The translations under genes and the position numbers were made by a program. Positions 4,975-47,495 of a stretch of DNA of 64,000 bases are shown in pieces. This stretch comes from Escallonia rubra (lineage: Eukaryota > Streptophyta > Magnoliopsida > Escalloniales > Escalloniaceae), in the NCBI GenBank assembly GCA_033065855.1, contig JAVXUO010001893.1, forward strand, positions 1 through 64,000, read 5' to 3'. The notes beneath the pieces were generated by a model. The model searched no databases and was not told the origin of the DNA. It saw only the letters and a list, made by a program, of their open reading frames with translations. Position 1 is the first letter of the stretch, and every line of letters begins with the position of its first letter.

Positions 4975-5345
4975 CTCCCTCCATCCCTTATTAAGTCACT
5001 CATTTTATTTTGCACGTATATTAACAATTTAAGTTATATATTATGTCTTTCTCATTTTACCGTTTAGAGAGAAGAAGGAAGAGAGTGGGCCATGGGAGAG
5101 AAAATTGGTTGATAGAGTGTTAAATGTGTAGAGAGAAATAGAATAAAAAAGTGTAAAGTGGTGGGCCATGAGAGAGAAAATGAGTTGGTAGAGAATTAAA
5201 TGTGGTGAGAGAAATAGAATAAAAAAAGTATAGAAAGGGTAAATGTGTAAAAATACCTAAAGAATCTTTCCTAATTTGGAAGTGATCACTTATTGTGGGA
5301 CGGCCCAAAAAAGAAATTTAATCACTTAAAAAGGGACGGACGGAG
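4975..5345. mobile_element. Stowaway MITE (Tc1/mariner type)
   Basis: Terminal inverted repeats CTCCCTCCATCCCTTATTAAG and its partner at 5320-5345 (...AAAAAGGGACGGACGGAG) match the Stowaway terminus. The TA target duplication is at 4973-4974 and 5346-5347. Inside is a ~75-bp tandem duplication (GGGCCATG-GAGAGAAAAT-GGTTG...AGAAATAGAATAAAAAAG). No coding capacity is expected or seen. Confidence 0.9.
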
Positions 5346-5347
5346 TA

Positions 5348-6119
5348 ATTACTAGTCAAATATAGCGAGCTATTTTGCATTTAATGTCTACAAAACTGAC
5401 GTGCATTTTTTTATTCTAAAATTTTTCTCGCCCTTAATTTGATAATCTGGGTCTAGTCGTGTTGACATGACTGCAATTTAGCCTAATATTCATTTCCTGC
5501 ACCCACGTAACATGGGTTGCGCCCGGCTTATTTAATTTGCTGAACAAGTTCTAAATTCGGAGTTCAAATGGTTTGCCCAACTCACAAGAAAATATTCATT
5601 TACTAGTTACCAGGCCAACATGGCAACAATAGTTAATCACTTTTTATAAAATCATAACAATAACGTCTTTGCAGCGAAGAGCTTTAGGCAAAACAAAGAA
5701 TATGGCTATGAAATAGCACAAATCTAGGCACCTATTAAAACATCACGTACCAAGCGCAGATCTTTTCATGGCTGCCTACAGAACTAAACATGCCATCAGG
5801 AACCAATGTCTCATCACGGTTACTTGGTAAATTATGAATATTTGGTACAGAGGAGAGTCACGCTGTCCTCCTCAGATCTCCTGCTAAAACGTCATATTCA
5901 GCTTTATGTTCTCGAATCCTTGTAAAGAGGCTTGTGAAGAGGGTGACACTCCACACTCACAAGTGCACTCGTATTCTTGCTACTACGTACAATTCAAATA
6001 GATATTCAACTTACGAATCATGAACCCATGGCTCACACTTTGGCTGTGGACTGAAACTGTAACCCCGTCATATTCTAATACATATAACAAAAGAAAAAAG
6101 AAAAGGCAACTATATCAAC
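5348..6119. other. intergenic, downstream of TAS3
   Basis: AT-rich sequence with no open frame of note, no repeat termini and no RNA gene that I recognise. It lies 3' of the minus-strand TAS3 transcript. Confidence 0.5.
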
Positions 6120-6379
6120 AAATTTTATTTTTTTTGGTGCAAACTATATCAACAAATGTTGATGCAGTCAGATCAGTAAGATAGGTATTGCCCTCTCATC
6201 CAAAGAAACTTGCCCTCACCAATCCAAAACCAACAAACAAACAAGAAACGTAGTATATTTTCGTGGTAATTACTTTCAGTCCAAACTACAATACATTCAC
6301 TGAGATGATCTCAGGGACGAAGCAAAAAGAAACTTAACAAACAACCACTAAACTGAGTGATGATGGTTGTTCTTCATCC

Positions 6380-6400
6380 AAGCTCAGGAGGAATAGTCAC
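6380..6400 (-). promoter_or_regulatory. 3' miR390 target site of TAS3 (cleaved site)
   Basis: The plus strand reads AAGCTCAGGAGGAATAGTCA, so the transcript is complementary to miR390. Pairing is perfect at miRNA nucleotides 1-12, G:U at 13, paired at 14-17, mismatched at 18-20 and paired at 21. Pairing at the cleavage centre is intact, as expected for the 3' site that sets the phase. miR390 itself is taken from established knowledge. Confidence 0.9.
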
Positions 6401-6494
6401 AGATGTGTAAGATGGGAGGTTTGAACGAGATAGGAATAAGAGAAAAAAGCAGATACATGTGCAACAGAAAAAAGAGAGTGTAAGAAAATTTACA

Positions 6495-6515
6495 AAAGCC
6501 TTGCAAGGTCAAGAA
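6495..6515 (-). ncRNA. tasiARF, phase register D6(+)
   Basis: The transcript reads TTCTTGACCTTGCAAGGC followed by TTT. The first 12 bases equal the canonical tasiARF. Position 13 is C rather than the usual T, and position 17 is G rather than A. It lies exactly five 21-nt cycles upstream of the first cycle (6390-6410) set by miR390 cleavage. The likely targets are ARF2/ARF3/ARF4-type mRNAs, known from the family. Confidence 0.92.
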
Positions 6516-6628
6516 AAAAATTAAAGAAGGTGCAAAAACATAGCACCAAAGAGAGAAAAAGCTCAGAAAAGATAGCACCATTGAAGATTCATAGGCCATG
6601 CGTTTGCTTCATTCTCCATTTACGGTGA

Positions 6629-6649
6629 AAGCTCAAGTGGTGACCTATT
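6629..6649 (-). promoter_or_regulatory. candidate 5' miR390 site of TAS3 (non-cleaved type)
   Basis: The plus strand reads AAGCTCAAGTGGTGACC. Against miR390, nucleotides 1-7 and 9 pair, 8 is G:U, 10 is mismatched, 11-12 pair, and beyond that pairing is poor. A mismatch at position 10 is the hallmark of the non-cleaved 5' site in the two-hit model. It is ~249 nt upstream of the 3' site, a reasonable TAS3 spacing, and not in 21-nt phase with it. The weak 3' pairing makes this less certain than the other elements. Confidence 0.5.
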
Positions 6650-6665
6650 ATGCAGTAACCTTCCA

Positions 6666-6710
6666 TCAGACATAAACAGGTACTGGTTTCCGTGGGCAAG
6701 GGTTGATCAT
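6666..6710 (-). other. short ORF in the TAS3 leader ending just upstream of the 5' miR390-like site
   Basis: A 14-codon frame (MINPCPRKPVPVYV, stop) ends about 16 nt upstream of the candidate 5' miR390 site. Arabidopsis TAS3 has a leader ORF ending near this site, where ribosomes stall. A longer 66-codon frame (6589-6789) starts earlier and reads through the site. Which AUG would be used cannot be told from the sequence. Confidence 0.25.
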
Positions 6711-6829
6711 GAACACGAGGCCAAGGGCTAGAAGAGAGAGAAGAGACAGATGGACAGAAGAAGAACATGAAGTTACTTGGGTTTGCCATGAAGTGATAGA
6801 TGATGGGCGAAAATGGATGCTCGGATGGA

Positions 6830-6839
6830 GTATATATAC
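6830..6839 (-). promoter_or_regulatory. TATA box of TAS3
   Basis: The minus strand reads TGTATATATACTCC. The predicted start lies ~25-35 bases downstream, near 6800-6805. Its position upstream of the miR390 sites and tasiARF supports Pol II transcription on the minus strand. Confidence 0.65.
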
Positions 6840-9505
6840 AGATAAAATAGATCTGATAGTAAATAAGAATCAGAAAGTACAGACATTTCTAATGGTTGCT
6901 AACAGCTAAGTTCCAAGAGAGGGAGAACTTATTAAGAAATTGTTATCCAATTTCCACAAAAGAAATCGTTATTCCCACTACACAAGTTTGCGCTAGATCG
7001 AGTTACCAAGAAATTGAATTAATACTGAGACCACTTTTTCCGGACATTTAAAATTTGTATTGTATTACAGAATACAGAGAGCTCAAATAGTAATTCTTGT
7101 AATTTAATTGGCACACCCCTTCTGCTAAGAACGCTTCCGGATTGCCTTTGTGCAAAAGATAAAACAAGCGTCATTGTTTCTTGTGGATTATATGAGGTAC
7201 ATATGAATGGTATTAGCAAATAAAGAATCGCTAATAAGACTTCAGGCCTTCAGCAATAAAAAAGAATAATCAACTTCTCTCCAGGTCAGGATGTCACTAA
7301 AAGCCTAGTGACATTTTCTTGGAGTGTATGTAATCAGTTTGCTGGAAAAAAAAAAAAAAAAGGACATGAGAGTTATGGAAAATAATTTTGTGCTGCCAAA
7401 AAAGGGGTACTTATAATATGTGAGCAAGGTTTTGTGGGGTAAGGAGATGATGCAATGGACTTCTTTACTTATATCGGTGTACAATATTGCGGACTATAAC
7501 TTTTTTTTTTCCTAGATAACGCTTCATTTCTTTATTAGTTATTTTGGTTTCGAAATTATGAAAAAGATAGTACTCTTTCAAAAGGTGGAAAAAAAACGTA
7601 TTAATTGTTTGTATATCATTTTTGGAATCAAAAAGTTAATAAAATTTCATTACATACCACACTAAATATATGAAAAGTCTTTTATATGTTTGAATACCAC
7701 AGTTCAGATGTTTCTAAGTCAAAATGAGTTGAGTGGATTTGAACAGATTTTTAAATAGTTGATGGATAGTGCTTAATTTGAAATTCTTAATGCAGAACTT
7801 GATAAATGTTAGCCAAAGAACAAAATTTCAAAAAATTGATTTTATAATATTTCAATTGTCCATAAAGCTTTGGTACCCTGCTAGTTTGTGCAATTCCCAA
7901 CAAACAAATGTCTAGCAATTCTTGTAGCACAGTTTTTTTTTTTTTTCCCCTTCTTTTGTTGTCATCTTATGCTCTAAGATCATTCATCATATGGCATTGG
8001 TAAATCTGCACATCACATTACTGATGTCTCTAACATCATATGCAATTGTTCTTGTGGGTAATTTAAAATATATAAAATAGTGATCAAGCCAAGGTGAGTT
8101 TTTGTATTGCTTCAGCAATTATAGATATTCAACTCAATATAAAGGCTAATATTTAGTGTCAAGTTAAAATAACATCCTCTTGGAAGCATTCAGTATTTTA
8201 CAATTTTAGTAAAAATGATACTAATAAACCAAATTGAACCCCATCAATAATTCAATATTGTCCCTGACTGTTCCTCCAGAGCATTAGAGTGTTTTGTTTC
8301 CCTACCTAGCAGATAAGAGAAGAGAGGGTGATGCAGCAATATACATAGAGTTGGCAGTGCTAGTAATGTGACTGAACAAAGCCATCAAAGTATCTAATGA
8401 ACCTCACGTCTGTCAACATCTTTTATCTACTCAGTTACGCTTCGTACGAAGGAATAAGATCCATGGGGACTCGGAGCCATACAAGTTGTCCGTGAGGGAA
8501 AAAGAGGGTTTCAACGCCTCTGATCTACCCAATTGGCTGCACTGAACAGTTATTATGAGAAGAAAGGTCAGGTGAAGTCTTTCGCTCTTGCACAAAGGAT
8601 TCTTGCAGCTACTTTTCCTGTAGCGTAATCATGACATGGATGTGGCCAACACATACATTTACGGCCTACTCGTAACATTTTTATTTACCATTAACTTTCA
8701 AGATTTTCTGATAAAAGATGCGGGTACAAAAAGTCATGTTATTGCAAATCAAAGGTAGTTGTTGTAATTAATTATGTACAAAACATGTTTTTGCCATAAG
8801 CTGCCTCTTATTTACACATTGGTAGTACCGACTAATTACGCAACGTCTCAGCTTAAGCAAGGTTCATTCATTCAAAGAGCCTCCACATGTCAATTTATCA
8901 AGGACTTATGAATCAGCCTAAAGTCAAATCCCAAATTAAGGCTAATTTGTCCTGGAGCAAGTCGATGACCGGTCCTTAAACTGTCAAATCAATAGTAACA
9001 ATGGCTAAGTTACACAGGACATGAAGTTTTAAACGGTTCTTAGTAAAGGAATGCTGCATCTCTCACCCACCCAGGACATGAAGTTTTAACGGTGCAACGT
9101 GTCATCGCGAGAAGAGTTGTAAAAACGTGATAGACTCTGGATGAAAATTTAGACTAAAAAGTAAAACGAGACTCTATTTAGTCTCAAACACATGACAAAG
9201 TCAGAACAAATTAGCTTAACGTGAGCAAAAGAATAAAACATGCATGCTTATATACATGGCAGCTCAAATTTTTTATCGACCTAATGCTAAATAATTGTAA
9301 GCTCAATTACAAACTTCATAAATATTCGTCTCAATTAATCATCTTCAGTGCCAAACACAGACTAACTCATATTTTACTTTATCACGTATTTGTTTACTTA
9401 GATAAACGAGTTTGCCTTAAACCCATCAAAACAACTATTTTGGTCACTCAAATAGCCACGAAAGTTATTTAATATGCGAACTAGTGTCGCACTCTCAGAG
9501 TAATA
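6840..9505. other. intergenic, upstream region of TAS3
   Basis: AT-rich spacer with several homopolymer A/T runs (7345-7360, 7500-7510, 7932-7946). No open frame with a recognisable domain and no repeat termini were found. The part next to 6840 is presumably the TAS3 promoter. Confidence 0.45.
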
Positions 9506-12169: not shown

Positions 12170-12611
12170 ACTCCCTATAGTCAACAAATGCTAAAATATC
12201 TCTGGAAGTTTTATCCATAATCAACCAACGGGTGCCATTGTACGTTTCAATCAAAAGTTGGATGTAAGTGTTGGAAGCAGTGCCATAAGCTTCAGTGACC
12301 GCATCCAACATTTCTTTAACAGTTTTATATTCCTCATAAATTAATTCTAAGTCTGGTTCCATAAAAGTCAACAAGGTCTATCTAGCCAATTTGTCATTTT
12401 CAGCAAAACGATCAAAAGCCTCTCTAGCAGCCTCCCCAGCTCTAAGAGGTGGTTCTTTAGGGTAAGGCACATCTAGCACATATTCAACTTTGTCTTGGAA
12501 TAAGATGTGCCTAATTCTACGTTTCCAGGTTGAGAAATTATTCCCATTGAGCTTTTCAGTTTTGCTAAGTTCAACACTAGCAGCCTTAGAAGCCATATGC
12601 AATTTCACCAA
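12156..12611 (-). pseudogene. Copia gag, shortened
   Basis: On the minus strand the frame starts MVKLHMASKAAS and contains KLNGNNFSTWKRRIRHIL, the N-terminal Copia gag motif. After one stop near 12375 it continues in gag-like sequence (LELIYEEYKTVKEMLDAV) to 12156, with its last residues reaching the polypurine tract and LTR edge. About 150 codons in all. The gag C-terminus and zinc knuckle are missing, so it cannot be a normal gag. Confidence 0.75.
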
Positions 12612-13203
12612 ATTAAGACAAGACTGAAAATTACGGTGAGTAAATAACTGACAAGAAATTCATTTGAATAATTTTACCAATTTGAGTGGTTTCTGATCAA
12701 GGGCTTCAATATGATTCCCGCCCTTGGTGATTTGGTTGAAGATTGCAATTGAAAAAGAAAGCTGCCACTGCAACAATCTTGCCTAATCAAAGCATTTCTT
12801 TGAAGACCCAGCAATTTTTGAATGACGAACTGAATTCGGTTTGACAGTATCCACACAAAGTAACAAACTCAACCGAATTAACAAACTTTTTGAACTTGAT
12901 ATTTCCTGAAACAAAGCCTTTTCAATCTCTCGGTATCGCACCACGCCAACGGCCAAAAGATGAAGAGAACGTAACTTTCACCGCTTCAAGTAAAGAAGAC
13001 AAAACAAATATGTAAGCAGTATTGCTTGAGGCAAGATTTGGATTTTTCAATGCAAAATGGTGGCTTTGATTTGTTCTCAGCAGATTGCACGAATCTGTGA
13101 GATGTTTGGAAAAGAGACTGGTGGGTATGATATGGTGTATGTTAGATGCGCCAAAGACGTGAAAAATACCAAGGCCAAAAATTAATTCGGGCTTTGATAC
13201 CAC

Positions 13204-14289: not shown

Positions 14290-17200
14290 TTGATCCAAAT
14301 CTTCTTCGGATCCAATCTTAGAAATGGGCCAACACTCTAATGTGGATTCTCTTGCCTTTCCAAAATCCCTAATCCAACAAATCCTCAATCAATTCTGGAA
14401 AATCAGGGGTCAGTTGAGGTGGAAGCAATTGGAGAATTATTTTCTTTTCACTTCTCAAATGAATTGGACATGGAATGTTTGTTGTTTGACGGGCCATGGA
14501 ATATTCATGGTACCCTGCTAGTGTTAGTTAAATGGGTTCGTTTCTAGTGTTTATCTCGGCTTGATTTTTCTACCGTCGACCTTTGAGTTAGAATCAACGA
14601 TGTTCCAGCCGAGATGTTCTATTATGAAATTGTTGGCCAAATCGGCAGCTTCTTCGAAGAAGTAATGGCTGATGATTTTTATCCTTGGGGTTGTGCTTGA
14701 TCAACCCTTTGGCACTCCATGAGAAATTTGAGTTGGAATTGTGGAAGCTTGGGTCAACACTCCACAGTCGGGATTTTAACTAAGTTGATCCATGTTCATA
14801 ACCCTGACATTATCTTCCTTATGGAAACTAAACTTCTTTCTTGTAATATTTCCTGCATCTTTCGTAAATTGGTGTTTATTGAGTTGGTTGTGGTTGAATC
14901 GGAGGGACATAGTGGGGGTTTATGGCTACGAGGTTTATAGGCTTCTGCTATCACTGTCTTGTCTTACGACAAACACCTTATTCTGATTTCGCTTCTTTCT
15001 CGGTCTAGAGAGTTAGTATATTATGGTTTCATTTACGGTCACCCTATGGTTCAACATCGTTTTGACACTTGGCTGCACATTTAGGCAATTTTAGATCTTC
15101 TCTTAGGTCCTCTGTGCCTATGCGGTGACTTTAACCAAGTTTTGTCCTCTCATGAAATAATGGATCGCACACTAATCACTTCCCTGGTGCAAATTGGTTT
15201 AGAGCTTTTCTTGAGAATTTTGCTCTATCAGATATTGGTTGGAACGGCTCACCTTTTACTTGGATGCGTGGTTATCCTGAATCAGGATTTGTAATGGAAA
15301 AATTAGATAGGGTCATGGCTAATCTTGATTGGATTTTGCTCTTTCTATCCAATATTGCTAGTAACCAAGTTGTTTTTCGCTCTGACCATGCTCCTATCTT
15401 ATGTGATGACAACCCTCTTTCTTTACATTTTCCAAAACCCTAACTCTTTGAAGCGTTCTGGCTCCATCATCCTCACTGTTTACATATTCTCTGTTGGGTT
15501 TGGAATACCCTTCCCTTAGGTTCTCCCTTATTCCAATTCATGTCTTGTTCAAGCAAGGCAATGCAACTTCTCATCTCTTGGAATTTTGAGAACTCATCGA
15601 GTTTAGCTGGGTGCATTCAATCTATTCAAAACCTCATTTCCTCACTGTTCTCTCATAGCATCTCTTCTGACTTTCAATATTCCCAAATTTTCCACCTTTA
15701 TCGTCATTTAAATCTTCTTCTTCTTTATGAAGAAACTTTTTGGGCTCAACGTTTAAAGAGTCTTTGGCTAAACCTTGGTGACAAAAATACAAAAAAAATT
15801 CATGCCTCCACTATTATCCGTCGTAAACAAAATTTTATCTCTTCTTTGAAAGACAGTCATGGCATCATTCAGTCTGATGAGGTACTCATCCGAAAGACTT
15901 TGGTGGAATATTTTTCAGCTTTTGTTTTCATCTTCTACTTCTAGTTTATACCCTCATTCTTTTCCTTCCGAGCTTCATTCTATCAACTCTGATTAAATAC
16001 TTCATCTGAATCAGCCTTTTTCTGAAAGTGAGATTAAAATAACAGCTTTCCAAATCAAAGGATTCAAATCTCCCGGTCCTGATGGGTTGCCTGCAGTTGT
16101 CTATCACAAGTGTTGGCATATTTGGGGGCCACTTGAGACTCGAGGTGCTCTTTCCTTTCTGAATTCGGGTCATACGCTGAGGGTAGTTAATAGCACCTTC
16201 TTAACGCTGATCCTAAAAATACCGATCCTAGAACCAGCCTCTGACTTCCGACCTATCAGTCTTTGTAATGTTATTTACAAAATTATTACCAAAGTACTAG
16301 TATCAAGATTATCCTATGTTATGGCCTCCCTTATCTTTCCTTTCCAAAATTCTTTTGTGGCCGTTCGATGCCTTTCAGATAACATCATCTTAGCACAAGA
16401 ACTTACTCATTGCGTTGCTAAAAACTGAAAAGGTAAAGATGTGCTCATTGGTCTTAAATTGGATTTGAGTAAGGCTTTCGACAGATGACACTGGGATTTT
16501 ATCAATCAGGTTTTGCAAGCTATGTATTTTCCTCCGAATTGGGTTAGACTTTTCATGCAATGCGTGACGACGATGACTTATAATTACTTGTAAATGGTGC
16601 GCTCACACCTTGCTTTACTCCCATGTGTGGCATTCGTCAGGGTGACCCGCTCTCACATTTTTTTTCATTCTTTGCTCTGAAGTTCTTTCCCCTTTCATGC
16701 TCTCGGCAGAACATCGAGGTTTGATATCAGGGATTAAAGCGGGACGTCGATCCCCTCTTATTTCACACCTCATGTATGCTGGTGATATTTTTCTTTTCCT
16801 TAAATTCAATCAAAATCCTTTCCAAGAAGTCTTAGAGCTCTCTTTTATCCTAAACAGTTATTGTGAGATTTCTGGTCAACAGATTAGTTGGCTTAAGTGA
16901 AGCCTGTCCATTAGTCCTAATGCCTTTGCTAAAACCGGAGCAAAAATTAAATGTGCCCTTGCCTTTCATTCTCAGTTTACGTTTGGCAAATACCTATGTA
17001 TTCAGCTTGATGTATCAACTAATCTGAGGCTTTTGTTCTCAGGTGTGATCCAAAAAGTTCAGGACCTATGCGCTCATTGGTTGTGTTTACTGTTAAAGAA
17101 AGATGGTCGTGCTACTCTAATCCAATATGTTCTATCCTCCCTATTAATTCATTACATGTCAGTTTAGAAATTTCCAGTTTACATTTCTAAACAGTTGGAC

Positions 17201-24514: not shown

Positions 24515-24765
24515 CGGACGACGGACATCACGAGGTTGATGCCCGATGGATGTCGTGAGGTTGATGCACGACGGACGTCACGAGGTTGATGTACGAGGGA
24601 CGTCGAGAGGTTGATGTATGAACGGACGTCGGGAGGTTGATGTGCGACGGACGTCGGGAGGTTGATGTACAACAGACGTTGGGAGGTTGATGTACGAACG
24701 GATGTCAGGAGGTTGATGTATGACGGACGTCAGGAGTTTGATGTATGAACGGACGTAAACATCGC
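24515..24765. repeat. minisatellite, ~28-bp unit
   Basis: About nine degenerate copies of CGGACGTCGGGAGGTTGATG followed by TACGAA or similar. The frames across it are translations of the repeat, not genes. Confidence 0.85.
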
Positions 24766-24794
24766 GGAAGTGCAAAGACTCGAGAAAACAAGTG

Positions 24795-25740
24795 CGCGCG
24801 GGAGGGCCAAGGCCACCACCCCTGGGGAGGCCGAGGCCGACTACTTGCGGAGGCTGAGGCCGACCCTAGGGGGTGGCCAAGGCCAATGGCCAACTCCCAT
24901 GAAGGGAGGCCAAGGCCACTCCCCCCTTTGGTGAACTTTGGGCGCGCCGACGGTAGATGTTTTGATGAGCAAAGGCAAATCTGGAAGTTGATTTACGACG
25001 AGCGTGTCGATTTGAATCGTACCCATGTGACGAATAAGGTGCCAAGATTACGTACAAAGCATACGAAGAGAAAAAAGTGTGAAAAGGGGTATGAAGGAAA
25101 TGGGTGAACCATTGGGGGAAAATGGCCGAGGCCAACCCCTCCTGGAGGCCGAGCCCGAGCCCGTAGGCATGGGGAAGGCCGAGGCCGAGCCCCTGGGGTT
25201 GGCCAAGGCCAAATGGCCAACTTCCATTTTCGGAGCCCAATGCCACTTCTCCTTTTGCAAACTTTGGGCGCATCGTCGGTAGGTGTTTTGATGAGCAATG
25301 ACAAATACGGAAGTTGCGTTACGATGAGTGTGCTACCAAGAATTGTACCCACATGATGAAAAAGCTGCCACAGTCACGTATGAAACGTACGAAGTGAAAA
25401 AAGTGTGAAAAGGGGTATGCGGGAAAGGGGTGAACCACCGGGGGAAAATGGCCGAGGCCAACCCCTCCTGGAGGCCGAGGCCGACCCCCTAGGCATGGGG
25501 AAGGCTGAGGCCGACCCCCTGGGGTTGGCCAAGGCCAAATGGCCAACTTCCATTTTCGGAGCCCAAGGCCACTTCTTCTTTTGCGAACTTCGGGCGCGCC
25601 GTCGGTCGACATTTTTGGTGAAAAGGTGTTTGGGTGGTCTCGGCGTGACGATCGCGCTAGCGTGAGTGACGTCAACATGAAATACATCGTGCCTAAGTCG
25701 CGCATAAGGCGCACGGAGCGAAAAACGCACGTGACTTGAG
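24795..25740. repeat. GC-rich tandem array, 326-bp unit, about three copies
   Basis: The block AATGGCCGAGGCC starts at 25121 and again at 25447, giving a 326-bp period, with a diverged copy before it from ~24795. Each unit has dense GGCCGAGGCC / GGCCAAGGCC motifs, then TTTTCGGAGCCCAAG..., GGGCGCGCCG and GTGAAAAGGGGTATG. The composition is unlike the surrounding AT-rich DNA. Long frames on both strands are by-products of the array. Confidence 0.85.
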
Positions 25741-29322: not shown

Positions 29323-30972
29323 TCACAATTTAGGTCTAATTTTTGGTACCCACATTTTCTTAGGTCCATAAGTGTTAGTCTTAGCAACATTAAGAAACTC
29401 TTTAACAACCCACATTTTCTTTACACCTCTAACATAAATTTTTTTAAAAGGACAATAACTAGTCGTGCACCAACCACAATGTGTAAATGATGTGCAATAG
29501 TTCTTAGGTTGTCTTGTACGAACATTCAATCTAGCTTGTTGCTTAAAAACTTTAAGAGGCAAGGTGGAAGGATCTAATCTAACACCGCCTTTGTTTAGGC
29601 CAATTCTTTGGTGTCCAAGCATGACATCCAAGTTGTTTTTACCATGAAAAAAATTTTCAAAACATTTTTTCAAATCACAAATCTCAAGCTTTAAAATTTC
29701 ATTTTGTTTTTCTAAAATCGAAGTATCACAAGAGATTTGTTTTGTGCTAGGAATGCTCACAATCAATTCAACCAAATCATTATTCATATGTTCTACATAT
29801 AAATGGTTAGATATGCATTCATTCTTGGCATGCAACTCATTATTTTCACTTTTTAAGTCATCTAGCTCTTTTGAAATCGCATGCACTTGTTTTTTCAAAG
29901 CACAATTTTTCTTGACTAATTTTATGTATTCTTCATATAGAAGAGCATAAGCATCACAAATATCATCATTGGAGCAATTGCTATCACTATCAGTATCACT
30001 ATATGAAGAATTTACCTCATCATCTTTTTGAGCCATGAAGCATAGATTTGCATCTCTATCATCGAAATGACTACCTTCATCTCTATTTGAGTCATTATCA
30101 CTACAAATGATGGCTTCGATTGATGTCTTTATGGAGTGCTTCTTTCTTGACTCTTTCTTCTTCTTATTCTCTCATGAGATAGTCTCTATACTTGAATCAT
30201 TTTTTCTCTTGTGTGAGTTTTCAACTTTCTTAATTTTGAGAAACTCATTGAATTCCTTTGCAAGTATGTCCATCTCTTTGTTATTCAAGTCTTTTTCCTC
30301 TTCACTTGAAGATTGATCCATCATTGATGAAGCTTTAAGATCAATACACTTCTTCTTCTTCTTTGGACCTTTTTGTTCGGATGATTCGAGTTGTATTTCA
30401 TAGATCATCAAGGAGCAAATTAATTCATCCAACGAGAAGGTATTGAGATCCTTTGATTCTTGAAGTGCGGTGATTTTTGCATCCCATTCTCTAGGTAATG
30501 AACTAATTACTTTTTTCACAAGATCCCCGTTAGAGAAATCTTTTCCTAATTGTTACGAAGTATTAACAATTTTAGTGAAACGAAAGTTCATTTCCGTAAT
30601 GGATTCATCGAAAAACATTTGAAAGAGTTCATATTCTCTGTGCCACAAATTCATCTTTGAATATTTTAGAAGAGAGGTCCATTCAAGAGTGACTTGAAGT
30701 GTATCCCACATACTCTTAGTCGAATCACACATAGTAACTCGATTGACTTCATTTGTGTTTAGAGCATAAGCAAGACAATTCTTCGCTTTAGAATTCATGC
30801 AAAGCATATTTGTATCGTAGTCACTACATTTGGATTTTTCCTTTGGCACAAGCTTATCCCTAATCAACTTGGTGGGAACGTAAGGGTCATCTTCAGTAAT
30901 TCCCCACATTTCAAAGTCTAAAGACTCTAAGAATACTCTTATCTTAAATTTCCATGTACCATGAAGACACAT
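29323..30972 (-). pseudogene. Copia gag, three frame blocks
   Basis: The 30553-30972 block (WKFKIRVFLESLDFEMWGI, then DDPYVPTKLIRDKLVPKE) and the 30172-30519 block (VISSLPREWDAKITALQES, then DLNTFSLDELICSLMIYE) are the UBN2-type gag of plant Copia elements. A stop near 30552 separates them. The third block (29323-30036) begins MAQKDDEVNSSYSDTDSD, has a coiled-coil-like stretch, and ends with HCGWCTTSYCP and YGPKKMWVPK, which in complete elements leads into protease. No zinc knuckle of standard form is visible. Confidence 0.8.
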
Positions 30973-31080
30973 AAAAAAGGGGAGGTCTAGTAGAACTCCC
31001 CTGAAGACTAGAAAATCCCATGATCTTTTAACTCTTTAGGTGTTAACCAAAAAATCAAGAGCCGAAACTCTGATACCACT

Positions 31081-43369: not shown

Positions 43370-46300
43370 ATGGCGCCAAATACTTCGACGAAGTATGATT
43401 TGGAGAAGTTTAATGGATCAAACGATTTTAGTTTATGGAGGATAAAGATGCGCGCTGTTCTAATTCAGCAAGGGTTATTGAAAGCGTTAAAGGGGAAACA
43501 AGGGCTTTCTGATACGATGTCTGCTGATGAAAAAAAAGACATGTTAGAGAGAGCCTATAGTGCACTATTGCTGTGTTTAGCCGACAACGTGTTGTGAAAG
43601 GTTTCTCAGGAAACGACTACGGCTGGATTATGGCTGCAATTGGATAGCTTATATGTGACAAAGTCTCTGACAAATCGCCTGTATATAAAGCAACGACTGT
43701 ATACTCTTCGGATGAAAGAAGGTACATCGATCAATGATCATCTTGATGAATTTAACAAGGTAGTATTAGACCTGCAAAATATGGATATCATGATAGAAGA
43801 CGAAGATAAAGCTTAACTGTTGCTACGTTCAACACCTCCATCATATGAACATCTTGTTACTACCTTAATATATGGGAAGGGCAGTATCTCCATGGAGGAG
43901 GTTGAGGTGGTGATAAATTCTTAGGAATTAAGGAAGAAGGTTTCAGAAAATAGGGGAGAAGAACACGGCGATGGTCTGATGCCTCGAGGCCGAAGCACTA
44001 ACCATGCTGGGTCTAGAAATAAAGGAAGATCGAGGTCTCAGTTAAAGACCAGAAAATTGAAGCGCTATCATTGTCACAAGGAAAGGCATTATTGAAAGGA
44101 TTTTTCTGAGCGTAAAGGGAAGGAAAATGATAATTTCAAGATGGCTAATGCTGGAGTAGTAGAAGATAATTATGATGGTACGGATGTTCTCTCAGTTACT
44201 ATCAGTTCTTCGGATGTAAGGTGGATTCTTGATACGGGTTGCTCCTATCATATGTGTCCCAATAGGGATTGGTTTGCCACTTATCACTCATTTGATGGTG
44301 GTAAAATTCTTATGGGAAATGATGTCGCCTGTAAGGTGGTTGAGATAGGTTCAGTTCAGATTATGATGCATGATGGTATTTTGAGAACTTTGACTGATGT
44401 CAGGCACGTTCCAGAGCTGAGAAAAAATCTGATTTCTTTGGGTACGCTTGACTCTAGTGGTTGTAGCTATCGGGCTGCAAGCGGAGTTATGAGGATAATG
44501 AAATGTGCTCTTGTTGTGATGAAGCGATTGAAACAAAATAGCCTCTATTTGTTACAGGGTAGCACAGTTACAGGAGCAACGACAATAGCTTCATCTTCTA
44601 ATATAGATTCTAACACTACCAAGCTTTGGCATATGCGTCTTAGGCATATGAGTGAGAGGGGTATGGATGTGCTGAGCAAATAAGGTTTTCTGGGATGCAA
44701 GAAAATCGGGAAGCTATAGGGAAGCACTGTAGGGTGAAATTCAGTCGGGCTATTCATACCACCAAATGTACGGTGGATTAGATCCATTCATACCTTTGGG
44801 ATCCTTCCACGATTCCTTCTAAGGGTGGTGGCAGATATATGTTGACCTTTATTGATGACTTCTCAAGAAGGGTCAGGGTGTACATTTTGAAAAAGAAGAG
44901 TGACGTCTTTGTTCATTGGAAGCAGTTTAAAACGATGATTGAAAAACAGACCGGGAAAGAAATTAAATACTTGAGGAGTGACAATGGCATGGAATTTTGC
45001 TTGGATGAGTTTACAGAGTTCTGCAAGAATGAAGGCATAGTGAGGCATCGCACTGTTAAAAAATGCCACAGTAGAACATATGAAGAGGACTCTCCTTGAG
45101 AGGGCTCGATGTATGCCTTCAAATGCTGGGTTATTAAAGGAATTTTGGGCATAAGCTGCACTGTTAAAAAATGCCACAGTAGAACATATGAATAGGACTC
45201 TCCTTGAGAGGGCTTGATGTATGACTTCAAATGCCGGGTTATTAAAGGAATTTTGGGCATAAGTTGCGCTGTTAAAAAACGCCACAGCAGAACATATGAA
45301 TAGGACTCTCCTTGAGAGGGCTCAATGTATGCCTTCAAATGCCGGGTTATTAAAGGAATTTTGGGCATAAGCTGTTGAGACAGATGCATATTTGGTGAAT
45401 AGGTCTCCATCGATTGCAATTGATTGCAAGACTCCTGAAGAAGTTTGGTCTGGTAAGCATGCTGATTAAGAAAATTTGAGGATATTTGGTTGTCCTGCTT
45501 ATGCTCATGTTAATGATTGTAAACTTGAGTCGAGAGCGAAGAAGTACATTTTATTAGGCTATACAAGTGGGATAAAAGGGTACATGTTATGGTGTCCTGA
45601 TTCTAAGTCATCCAGGTTCCTAATTAGCAGAGATGTGACCTTTGATGAGTCTTCTATGCTTTCGAAGAAGGATGAGTTGATTGATGCAGGAAAAGACCAC
45701 AGTGTCAGGGAGAAGGTGGAGCTCGAGCTCCAGATTCTTTGCCTATAATTCCTACAGATGAGGAAGATGGTTCTCATTCTACCGAGTAGAATGAAGAACC
45801 TCAGGAAAAGTAGTATAGTATTGCCAGAAACAAATCGAGAAGAGAAATTCGACCTCCTCAGAAGTATGAATATGTAGATATGGTTGCTTATGCTCTAAGT
45901 GTGGCCAAAGATATTGAGGTTGAAGAGCCTGTTACATACAAAGAGGCCGTCAAGAGCACGTAATCAGCACATTGGATATTTGTTATGAGTGAGGAGATGT
46001 AATCTCTTTACAAGAATCAAACATGGGAATTGGTGAAACCGCCTGTGCGCCAGAAGATTGTTGGTTGCAAATGAGTCTACAAGAAGAATGAGGGAATTCC
46101 TAGAACGGAAGATGCAAGGTATAAAGCACGCTTGACAGCTAAGGGTTTTACTCAAAGAGAAGGAATCGATTACAATGAAATATTTTCTCCTCTAGTAAAA
46201 CATACTTCGATAAGAGTGGTGCTTGCTATGGTTTCTCTATATGACTCAGAGTTAGAGTAGCTGGATGTCAAGATAGCTTTTCTAAATAGTGAGTTGGAAG

Positions 46301-47495
46301 AGCAGATATTCACGCGTCAGCCAAAAGGGTTCGTGATCCAGGATAAGGAAGATCATGTTTGCTTATTGAAGAAATCCTTGTATGGATTAAAGCAATCTCT
46401 AAGACAGTGGTATAAGCGGTTTGACAATTTCATGGTAGAGAGAGGTTACACCAAGAGTGCCTATGACAGTTGTGTGTATCACCAGAGGCTCGCGAATGGT
46501 TCTCATATAAACTTGCTGTTGTATGTCGACGACATGTTAATTGCTGCAAAATCGATGTCAGATATCAAGGGTTTGAAAGAGAAATTGAAAAGGAAATTTG
46601 AGATAAAAGACTTCGGTGGAGCAAAGAGGATATTAGGGATGGAGATTCAAAGGGATCGGCCTGCAGGAATCTTATACTTGTCCCAGAAAAAGTACATTGA
46701 TCGAGTACTGGAGCATTTTGGTATGGAAAACTCCAAACCTGTGACTACTCCTTTGGCGGCACATTTCAAGCTTTCAGCAGCTGATTCCTCACGTACCTAA
46801 GAGAAGGTGGAGCACATGGCGTGTGTTCCATATGCTAGTGCAATAGGCAGTCTCATTTATGCTATGGTTTGTACGAGGCCCGATATTTCTCATGCGACCA
46901 GTGTGGTTAGCAGGCACATGGGTAATCCTGGGAAATCTCACTGGCAGGCAGTGAAGTGGATACTTCGATACCTGAGAGATACTGCGGATACTGGTTTAGT
47001 ATACCATCGGGGTAGTGATGTGAATGATAGAATTTTTGGATATGTGGATTCAGACTACGCTGGAGATTTAGATAGGAGGAGATCTTTGACAGGTTATACT
47101 TCACTTTTTCGAGCTGTGTGATTAGTTGGAAGGCTACTCTACAGACTATTGTTGCCTTATTTACTACAGAAGCTGAGTAAATACCAGCGACCAAAGCAGT
47201 GAAGGAAGCTATTTGGTTGAAGGGCTTGGTTGGTGATTTGGGGTTGAAGCAGAAGTCCAGTACTGTTTATTGCGATATCAAAAGTGCCATACATCTGACC
47301 AAAAATCAGATGTTCCATGAGCGGACCAAGCACATTGATGTCATGTTTCATTTTACTCGGGATGTGGTTTCTCATGGTACTGTTATGTTAGAGAAGATTT
47401 CCACAGTTGAAAATCCAATGGACATGATGACAAAGCATATTCCAGAGATCAAGTTTAAGAACTGCTTAGATTTGATCGGTATCAACAATATTTGA
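43370..47495 (+). pseudogene. Copia gag-pol of the nested element
   Basis: Gag starts MAPNTSTKYDLEKFNGSNDF (43370) and is broken by a stop at ~43595. A damaged zinc knuckle follows (YHCHKERHY). Protease: RWILDTGCSYHMC (44219-44257). GAG-pre-integrase: LWHMRLRHMSERGM (44623). Integrase: FIDDFSRRVRVYILKKK and LRSDNGMEFC (44842-45000), then a triplicated block. RT: the [18 protein letters not shown] and LDVKIAFLNSELEEQIF regions, LYGLKQSLRQWYKRFD, and intact LLLYVDDM (46090-46540). RNase H: DSDYAGDLDRRRSLTGYTS and HIDVMFHFTRD (47050-47370). About ten stops make it defective. Confidence 0.9.
45052..45375 (+). repeat. 108-bp tandem triplication inside the integrase
   Basis: Three units start at 45052, 45160 and 45268, each beginning CTGTTAAAAAATGCCAC and ending AATTTTGGGCATAAG. 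The period is 36 codons, so the frame is kept. The unit encodes the EHMNRTLLERARCM and NAGLLKEFWA part of the integrase core. Units differ by a few substitutions. Confidence 0.92.

Follow-up and report, generated by a model that had tools for sequence, protein, structure and literature searches.

The minus strand of the 64,000-nt stretch of Escallonia rubra DNA analysed here (the window) carries, between positions 6838 and 6124, what is very probably a short TAS3 gene, with one tasiARF. In transcript order, the locus begins with a candidate TATA box (TATATATA, 6838–6831), proposed in a preliminary description of this DNA; the sole matches to TATA(A/T)A on the minus strand between 7300 and 6570 start at 6838 and 6836. 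Transcription was assumed to start 30 nt downstream of this box, near 6808, and the first ATG after that point opens a short ORF of 66 codons plus stop (6789–6589), which ends 9 nt before the first of two miR390 sites. This 5′ site (GGTGCTATCTTTTCTGAGCTT, 6579–6559) has a penalty of 3.5 and is the best miR390 match on either strand of the window. It is adjoined by an imperfect 25-nt repeat of its own region (6548–6524), which is 76% identical and, with a penalty of 12.5, unusable as a site. The tasiARF (TTCTTGACCTTGCAAGGCTTT, 6515–6495) is followed by the 3′ miR390 site (GTGACTATTCCTCCTGAGCTT, 6400–6380; penalty 4.0) and by a candidate poly(A) signal (6129–6124), the sole AATAAA within 6400–5800 on this strand.

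The two sites are the only places on both strands of the window with a miR390 penalty of 7 or less. In the 5′ site, position 10 forms an A:U pair, and G:U wobbles fall at positions 9, 11, 12 and 19; those at 9, 11 and 12 adjoin the scissile bond and should weaken cutting, which speaks against cleavage of this site. The 3′ site has a G:U pair at position 13 and mismatches at positions 18–20, and its cut is predicted between 6390 and 6389. The tasiARF starts exactly 6 × 21 nt before this cut, at D6(+) with zero offset. The predicted 5′ cut lies 53 nt (2 × 21 + 11) from the tasiARF start and 179 nt (8 × 21 + 11) from the 3′ cut, with an inter-site gap of 158 nt, and the tasiARF is therefore in register with the 3′ cut only. 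The imperfect repeat beside the 5′ site may, at a guess, be connected with this changed spacing. The preliminary description had placed the 3′ site and the tasiARF correctly to the base, and its predicted cut and D6(+) register were exact. The sequence features bear out its identification of a TAS3 gene, but the account was incomplete, having missed the 5′ miR390 site and the 66-codon ORF.

A pair of miR390 sites, a single tasiARF and a 5′ site that is paired at position 10 place the locus, on its sequence, in the short one-tasiARF class, the type of apple TAS3-2 and of cassava and lotus TAS3c. The hallmarks of the two-tasiARF form, tandem tasiARFs and a position-10 mismatch in the 5′ site, are both absent from the locus, and a core-match scan counts one tasiARF between the miR390 sites. 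In later nomenclature the short genes are TAS3S, as distinct from TAS3L. Genes of this type make no known protein; a microRNA guides the cutting of their transcripts into small RNAs that adjust auxin-response genes. The locus is an ordinary, canonical and well-explained example of this known type, its novelty confined to the locus itself, and it is very likely to have TAS3 activity. The preliminary description had called it the main functional RNA gene of the window; this is plausible, as the window contains no Rfam match at gathering scores and no tRNA was found in it, but the activity itself is a prediction. Rfam likewise gave no match for 5900–7100 at E ≤ 1. A reading as a hairpin miRNA precursor was set aside, because the fold has a z-score of −1.10 and is equalled or bettered by 30 of 200 shuffled sequences. 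Pieces of the tasiARF and of the 5′ site, searched as text in the literature, gave no match, and a TAS3-shaped pattern had 0 matches in viral contigs. A scan for bacterial-type promoters and terminators carries no meaning for a plant gene.

The sites, register, ORF, miR390 and targets discussed here are read from the sequence, whereas the steps that join them are taken from established knowledge of the pathway. In this scheme, miR390–AGO7 would bind both sites and cut the 3′ site at the predicted position, while ribosomes translating the short ORF would halt immediately ahead of the 5′ site and contribute to retention of the transcript. SGS3 would protect the 5′ product of the cut, RDR6 would copy it from its 3′ end and DCL4 would dice it in 21-nt steps, and the sixth plus-strand product would be the tasiARF, which would guide cleavage of ARF2/3/4-type mRNAs. 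Some details sit less easily with a short TAS3 gene: the inter-site gap is 10 nt under cassava's, the tasiARF differs from the Arabidopsis type at 5 of its 21 bases (16 of 21 match), and the 3′ site is mismatched at positions 18–20, although the two-tasiARF TAS3 gene of the same genome, described below, is mismatched there too.

A refinement compatible with the short TAS3 reading is that both miR390 sites are cut, giving two siRNA registers 11 nt apart, of which only the one set by the 3′ cut yields the tasiARF. We regard this as possible, with the balance of evidence against it. It fits the 11-nt remainders in both the cut-to-cut distance and the distance from the 5′ cut to the tasiARF, and the 5′ site pairs at position 10, as in the short TAS3 genes for which 5′ cutting has been proposed (PMC3835848, PMC4124141, PMC4254747). 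Set against this are the wobbles around the 5′ scissile bond, the judgement in the apple report that the 3′ site sets the phase (PMC3446319), and the few and scattered 5′ RACE ends described for cassava TAS3c: at site 1, two at position 11, seven at position 1 and one at position 0, and at site 2, two at position 5 (PMC4124141). Shifted registers in cassava TAS3c (PMC4124141) and Arabidopsis TAS3a (PMC12127299) are ascribed to the genes' own siRNAs, so that off-register siRNAs by themselves would not establish cutting of the 5′ site. For grapevine, many non-phased siRNAs are described from TAS3 (PMC3742267), which weakens any test that uses phasing only.

Genome-wide, the tasiARF core TTGACCTTGYAAG has 75 exact matches, against 16 for the pattern read backwards; the search took the exact core only, so that any TAS3 gene or ARF site whose core differs falls outside it. 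Stretches reaching about 1–1.5 kb to each side covered all 75 matches and were scanned for miR390-like sites at a penalty of 6 or less. Such sites occur near the core at four loci: the window locus, its allele and two others, L041 and L039. Many of the other matches resemble one repeated protein-coding family reading ...LQGQ....

L041, on contig C1718, is a two-tasiARF TAS3 and served as the positive control for the TAS3 scan. Its tandem tasiARFs fall 1 nt off D7 and D8, registers also given for tea TAS3a in the literature, and its 3′ site (TTGTCTATCCCTCCTGAGCTA) shares with that of the window locus the mismatches at positions 18–20. Like the window locus, L041 and the Arabidopsis TAS3a type have dual miR390 sites, a tasiARF and a short ORF that stops just before the 5′ site; L041 differs in its tandem tasiARFs, in an A:A mismatch at position 10 of the 5′ site and in the 271 nt between its cuts. 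L039 (G000:C1633:561400–563400, minus strand) carries a near-perfect miR390 site (penalty 2.0) and a tasiARF (TTCTTGACCTTGCAAGCCCTT) that starts 3 × 21 + 2 nt from the 5′ cut. No second miR390 site was found at a penalty of 6 or less in this 2,001-nt locus, the next best within 400 nt downstream having a penalty of 10.5. L039 thus shares a miR390 site, a tasiARF and a nearby ORF stop with the window locus and is without the 3′ site; it may be a copy in decay, or else a TAS3 that depends on its 5′ site. When the three TAS3-like loci are aligned, the tasiARFs fall together, and the remainder is too divergent to use.

An ORF stop precedes the 5′ miR390 site in all three TAS3-like loci found in the genome, at a distance of 9 nt in the window locus (66 aa), 4 nt in L041 (30 aa) and 10 nt in L039 (31 aa). 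Among window positions, 2.4% have a stop of an ORF of at least 30 aa within 10 nt upstream, and 0.7% that of an ORF of at least 60 aa. Shorter ORFs that run into the 5′ site are also present at the window locus and L041, and the three peptides show no likeness by eye. Li et al. 2016 (PMC5207768) describe ribosome-protected short ORFs bounded by the miRNA site in the TAS RNAs of Arabidopsis, and cite AGO7-dependent ribosome stalling on TAS3. Deletion of most of the ribosome-bound region of Arabidopsis TAS3 is reported to lower transcript levels and to leave miR390-phased siRNAs largely intact (PMC12127299); by analogy, the ORF is therefore probably an inessential helper and carries limited weight as evidence. 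An ORF ending just upstream of the 5′ site, as at the window locus, is a supporting and not a strictly defining feature of TAS3.

The genome also encodes the other components expected of the module. A search allowing one mismatch found two exact miR390 sequences, and none with the pattern reversed. One of the two loci (L080) has a predicted hairpin fold (−59.4 kcal/mol); at the other (L081), the folded stretch ended within the second arm. Targets were compared through the core complement within the fetched loci, leaving out L001–L004, and the best 45 matches were listed. Among these, seven distinct ARF-type sites pair with the window tasiARF free of mismatches (penalty 1.0–2.0), with wobbles at positions 17 and 19–21, and all seven read VLQGQE in frame. 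They are distributed over C1505 and C3171 (two each) and C2219, C2124 and C1133 (one each). The antisense of L039 scores 1.5 (one mismatch) and that of L041 3.0 and 4.0, since these are related TAS3 loci; the other matches listed score at least 4.

Four of the five target loci, holding six of the seven sites, contain ARF-type exons resembling the B3 and ARF ancillary domains (tblastn with five exon queries, E ≤ 1e-3). In C1505, Pfam identifies an ARF ancillary domain (1.1e-9), and tblastn adds exons of the B3-like and PB1-like kinds; C2219 matches AUX_IAA (8e-12) and, too weakly for the Pfam cut-off, B3, and includes an ancillary-like exon; in C3171 the exons are B3-like and ancillary-like, with no PB1-like match; and C2124 has B3-like, ancillary-like and PB1-like exons, all by tblastn. 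When ten exon pieces were compared with Pfam, seven matched no family, including the three that carry target sites. From the number of sites and the domains, and partly from general knowledge of the family, we tentatively label these loci as ARF2/3/4-type genes. At C1133, no ARF-domain exon was found within 9.5 kb. This locus (L079, G000:C1133:121500–131000) carries an intact tasiARF target site in an ARF-like exon resembling that of C2124, and is possibly a duplicated gene fragment.

A DNA search with 6300–6800 recovered only two copies, identical to each other, one on the window's contig (C2470) and one on C2469. The surrounding 10 kb is about 99% identical between the contigs in a gapped comparison, apart from a 371-bp stretch absent from C2469 and smaller indels, and on this identity the two copies are most likely allelic. 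No difference separates them over 882 bp; nearby, about 1.7 kb is equally free of differences, so this identity gives no evidence of constraint. The terminal 1.25 kb of C2469 finds no alignment in the first 14 kb of the window, and the contigs therefore do not overlap end to end. The stretch absent from C2469 (4975–5345) includes a 76-bp tandem repeat at 5085–5226, and the start of C2470 and the end of C2469 look like unmerged alleles with an insertion polymorphism. Farther along the window, which is otherwise AT-rich, GC-rich tandem arrays with units of 25/51/76 bp and 326 bp occupy 24518–25606. Judged by eye from their translations, a frame at 12378–12659 (minus strand) resembles a copia gag remnant and one at 15156–16428 (plus strand) a non-LTR reverse transcriptase remnant.

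It is very improbable that the locus is a recently silenced TAS3 copy, its sites intact and its transcription or processing lost. Such a reading would suit a window that carries retrotransposon sequence, with copia-type matches in three of ten long ORFs scanned out of 16 listed (30556–31035, 44096–44680 and 46261–46797), and a genome in which a related locus, L039, is without the 3′ site. However, the copia matches lie at least 24 kb away, every element that was looked for is intact, the register included, and the tasiARF retains its mismatch-free pairing with seven ARF-type sites among the matches listed.

The preliminary description had considered chance very unlikely, and a first-order Markov simulation based on the whole window (39,999,600 positions) agrees. 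The miR390 penalty stayed above 5 at every simulated position, whereas the window has two sites at 4.0 or less. For the ARF-complementary form of the tasiARF, the simulation gave 0 positions within two mismatches and one within three; the window tasiARF is two mismatches from this form and lies with both miR390 sites inside 200 nt, on one strand and in order. A match as good as the one to the Arabidopsis-type tasiARF arose at 58 simulated positions, about 0.19 per window. The ARF-complementary form makes the better reference, since the ARF loci of this genome contain its exact target, AAGGTCTTGCAAGGTCAAGAA, at three places. The match to the 21-nt register would add a further factor of about 1/21. 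A search of the 566-Mb genome for the 16-base core of the 3′ miR390 site, CTATYCCTCCTGAGCT, gave five exact places: two opposite the miR390 sequences, one in L041 on C1718, and two at the window locus (C2470 and C2469). Allowing one mismatch adds 13 places, which we regard as background because the reversed pattern gives 23 against this total of 18. That look-alike sites came together by chance in DNA rich in AT and in pyrimidines can be set aside, for although 6579–6380 is 73.5% pyrimidine and the simulation used the composition of the whole window and not of that stretch, none of the simulated positions was as good for either kind of site, the exact 3′ core occurs at five genomic places that all belong to the TAS3 module, and the register, ORF stop and targets all agree.

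The short TAS3 gene thus comes with the rest of its module, the miR390 sequences, a second TAS3 and the ARF targets, in one plant genome. With its tasiARF in exact register with the 3′ cut only, the locus might, we suggest tentatively, serve as a natural test of whether the 5′ or the 3′ cut determines the phase of TAS3. Were the 5′ site also cut, a second siRNA register 11 nt away would be expected to lack a tasiARF, and the 3′ spacing alone would be seen to be maintained by selection. This would be a small natural experiment on phase setting, and changes no view of how TAS3 works.

Among known short genes, apple TAS3-2 is described as having two miR390 sites around a region of ~190 nt, one tasiARF and a 5′ site unmismatched at position 10, and as absent in Arabidopsis and conserved in many dicots (PMC3446319). 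The accounts in PMC3835848 and of cassava and castor (PMC4124141) and lotus TAS3c (PMC4254747) agree with this class description. Further traits of the class are a conserved region on the 5′ side of the tasiARF and a divergent one on its 3′ side. The window locus shares with these apple, cassava, castor and lotus genes the two miR390 sites, the single tasiARF and the unmismatched position 10. Its siRNA region, 179 nt from cut to cut, meets the class value of ~190 nt approximately, being about 10 nt short. In lotus TAS3c the tasiARF is at D6 from the 3′ cut, as here, so that the exact phasing stressed in the preliminary description is what the class would lead one to expect. Lotus TAS3c also has a second phase, shifted by 2 nt (PMC4254747). 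For cassava TAS3c, the inter-site gap is tabulated as 168 nt, the region is elsewhere called 190 nt, and the tasiARF is placed at D4 counted from the 5′ cut (PMC4124141). By our own arithmetic, a 168-nt gap puts the cassava cuts 9 × 21 nt apart, so that D4 from the 5′ cut equals D6 from the 3′ cut. At 158 nt, the spacer of the window locus is 10 nt shorter than cassava's, and its predicted 5′ and 3′ cuts therefore do not share one register. The wobbles at positions 9, 11 and 12 of its 5′ site set it apart from the apple, cassava and lotus genes, and the lack of a common register between its predicted cut points is one distinguishing, mildly notable trait.
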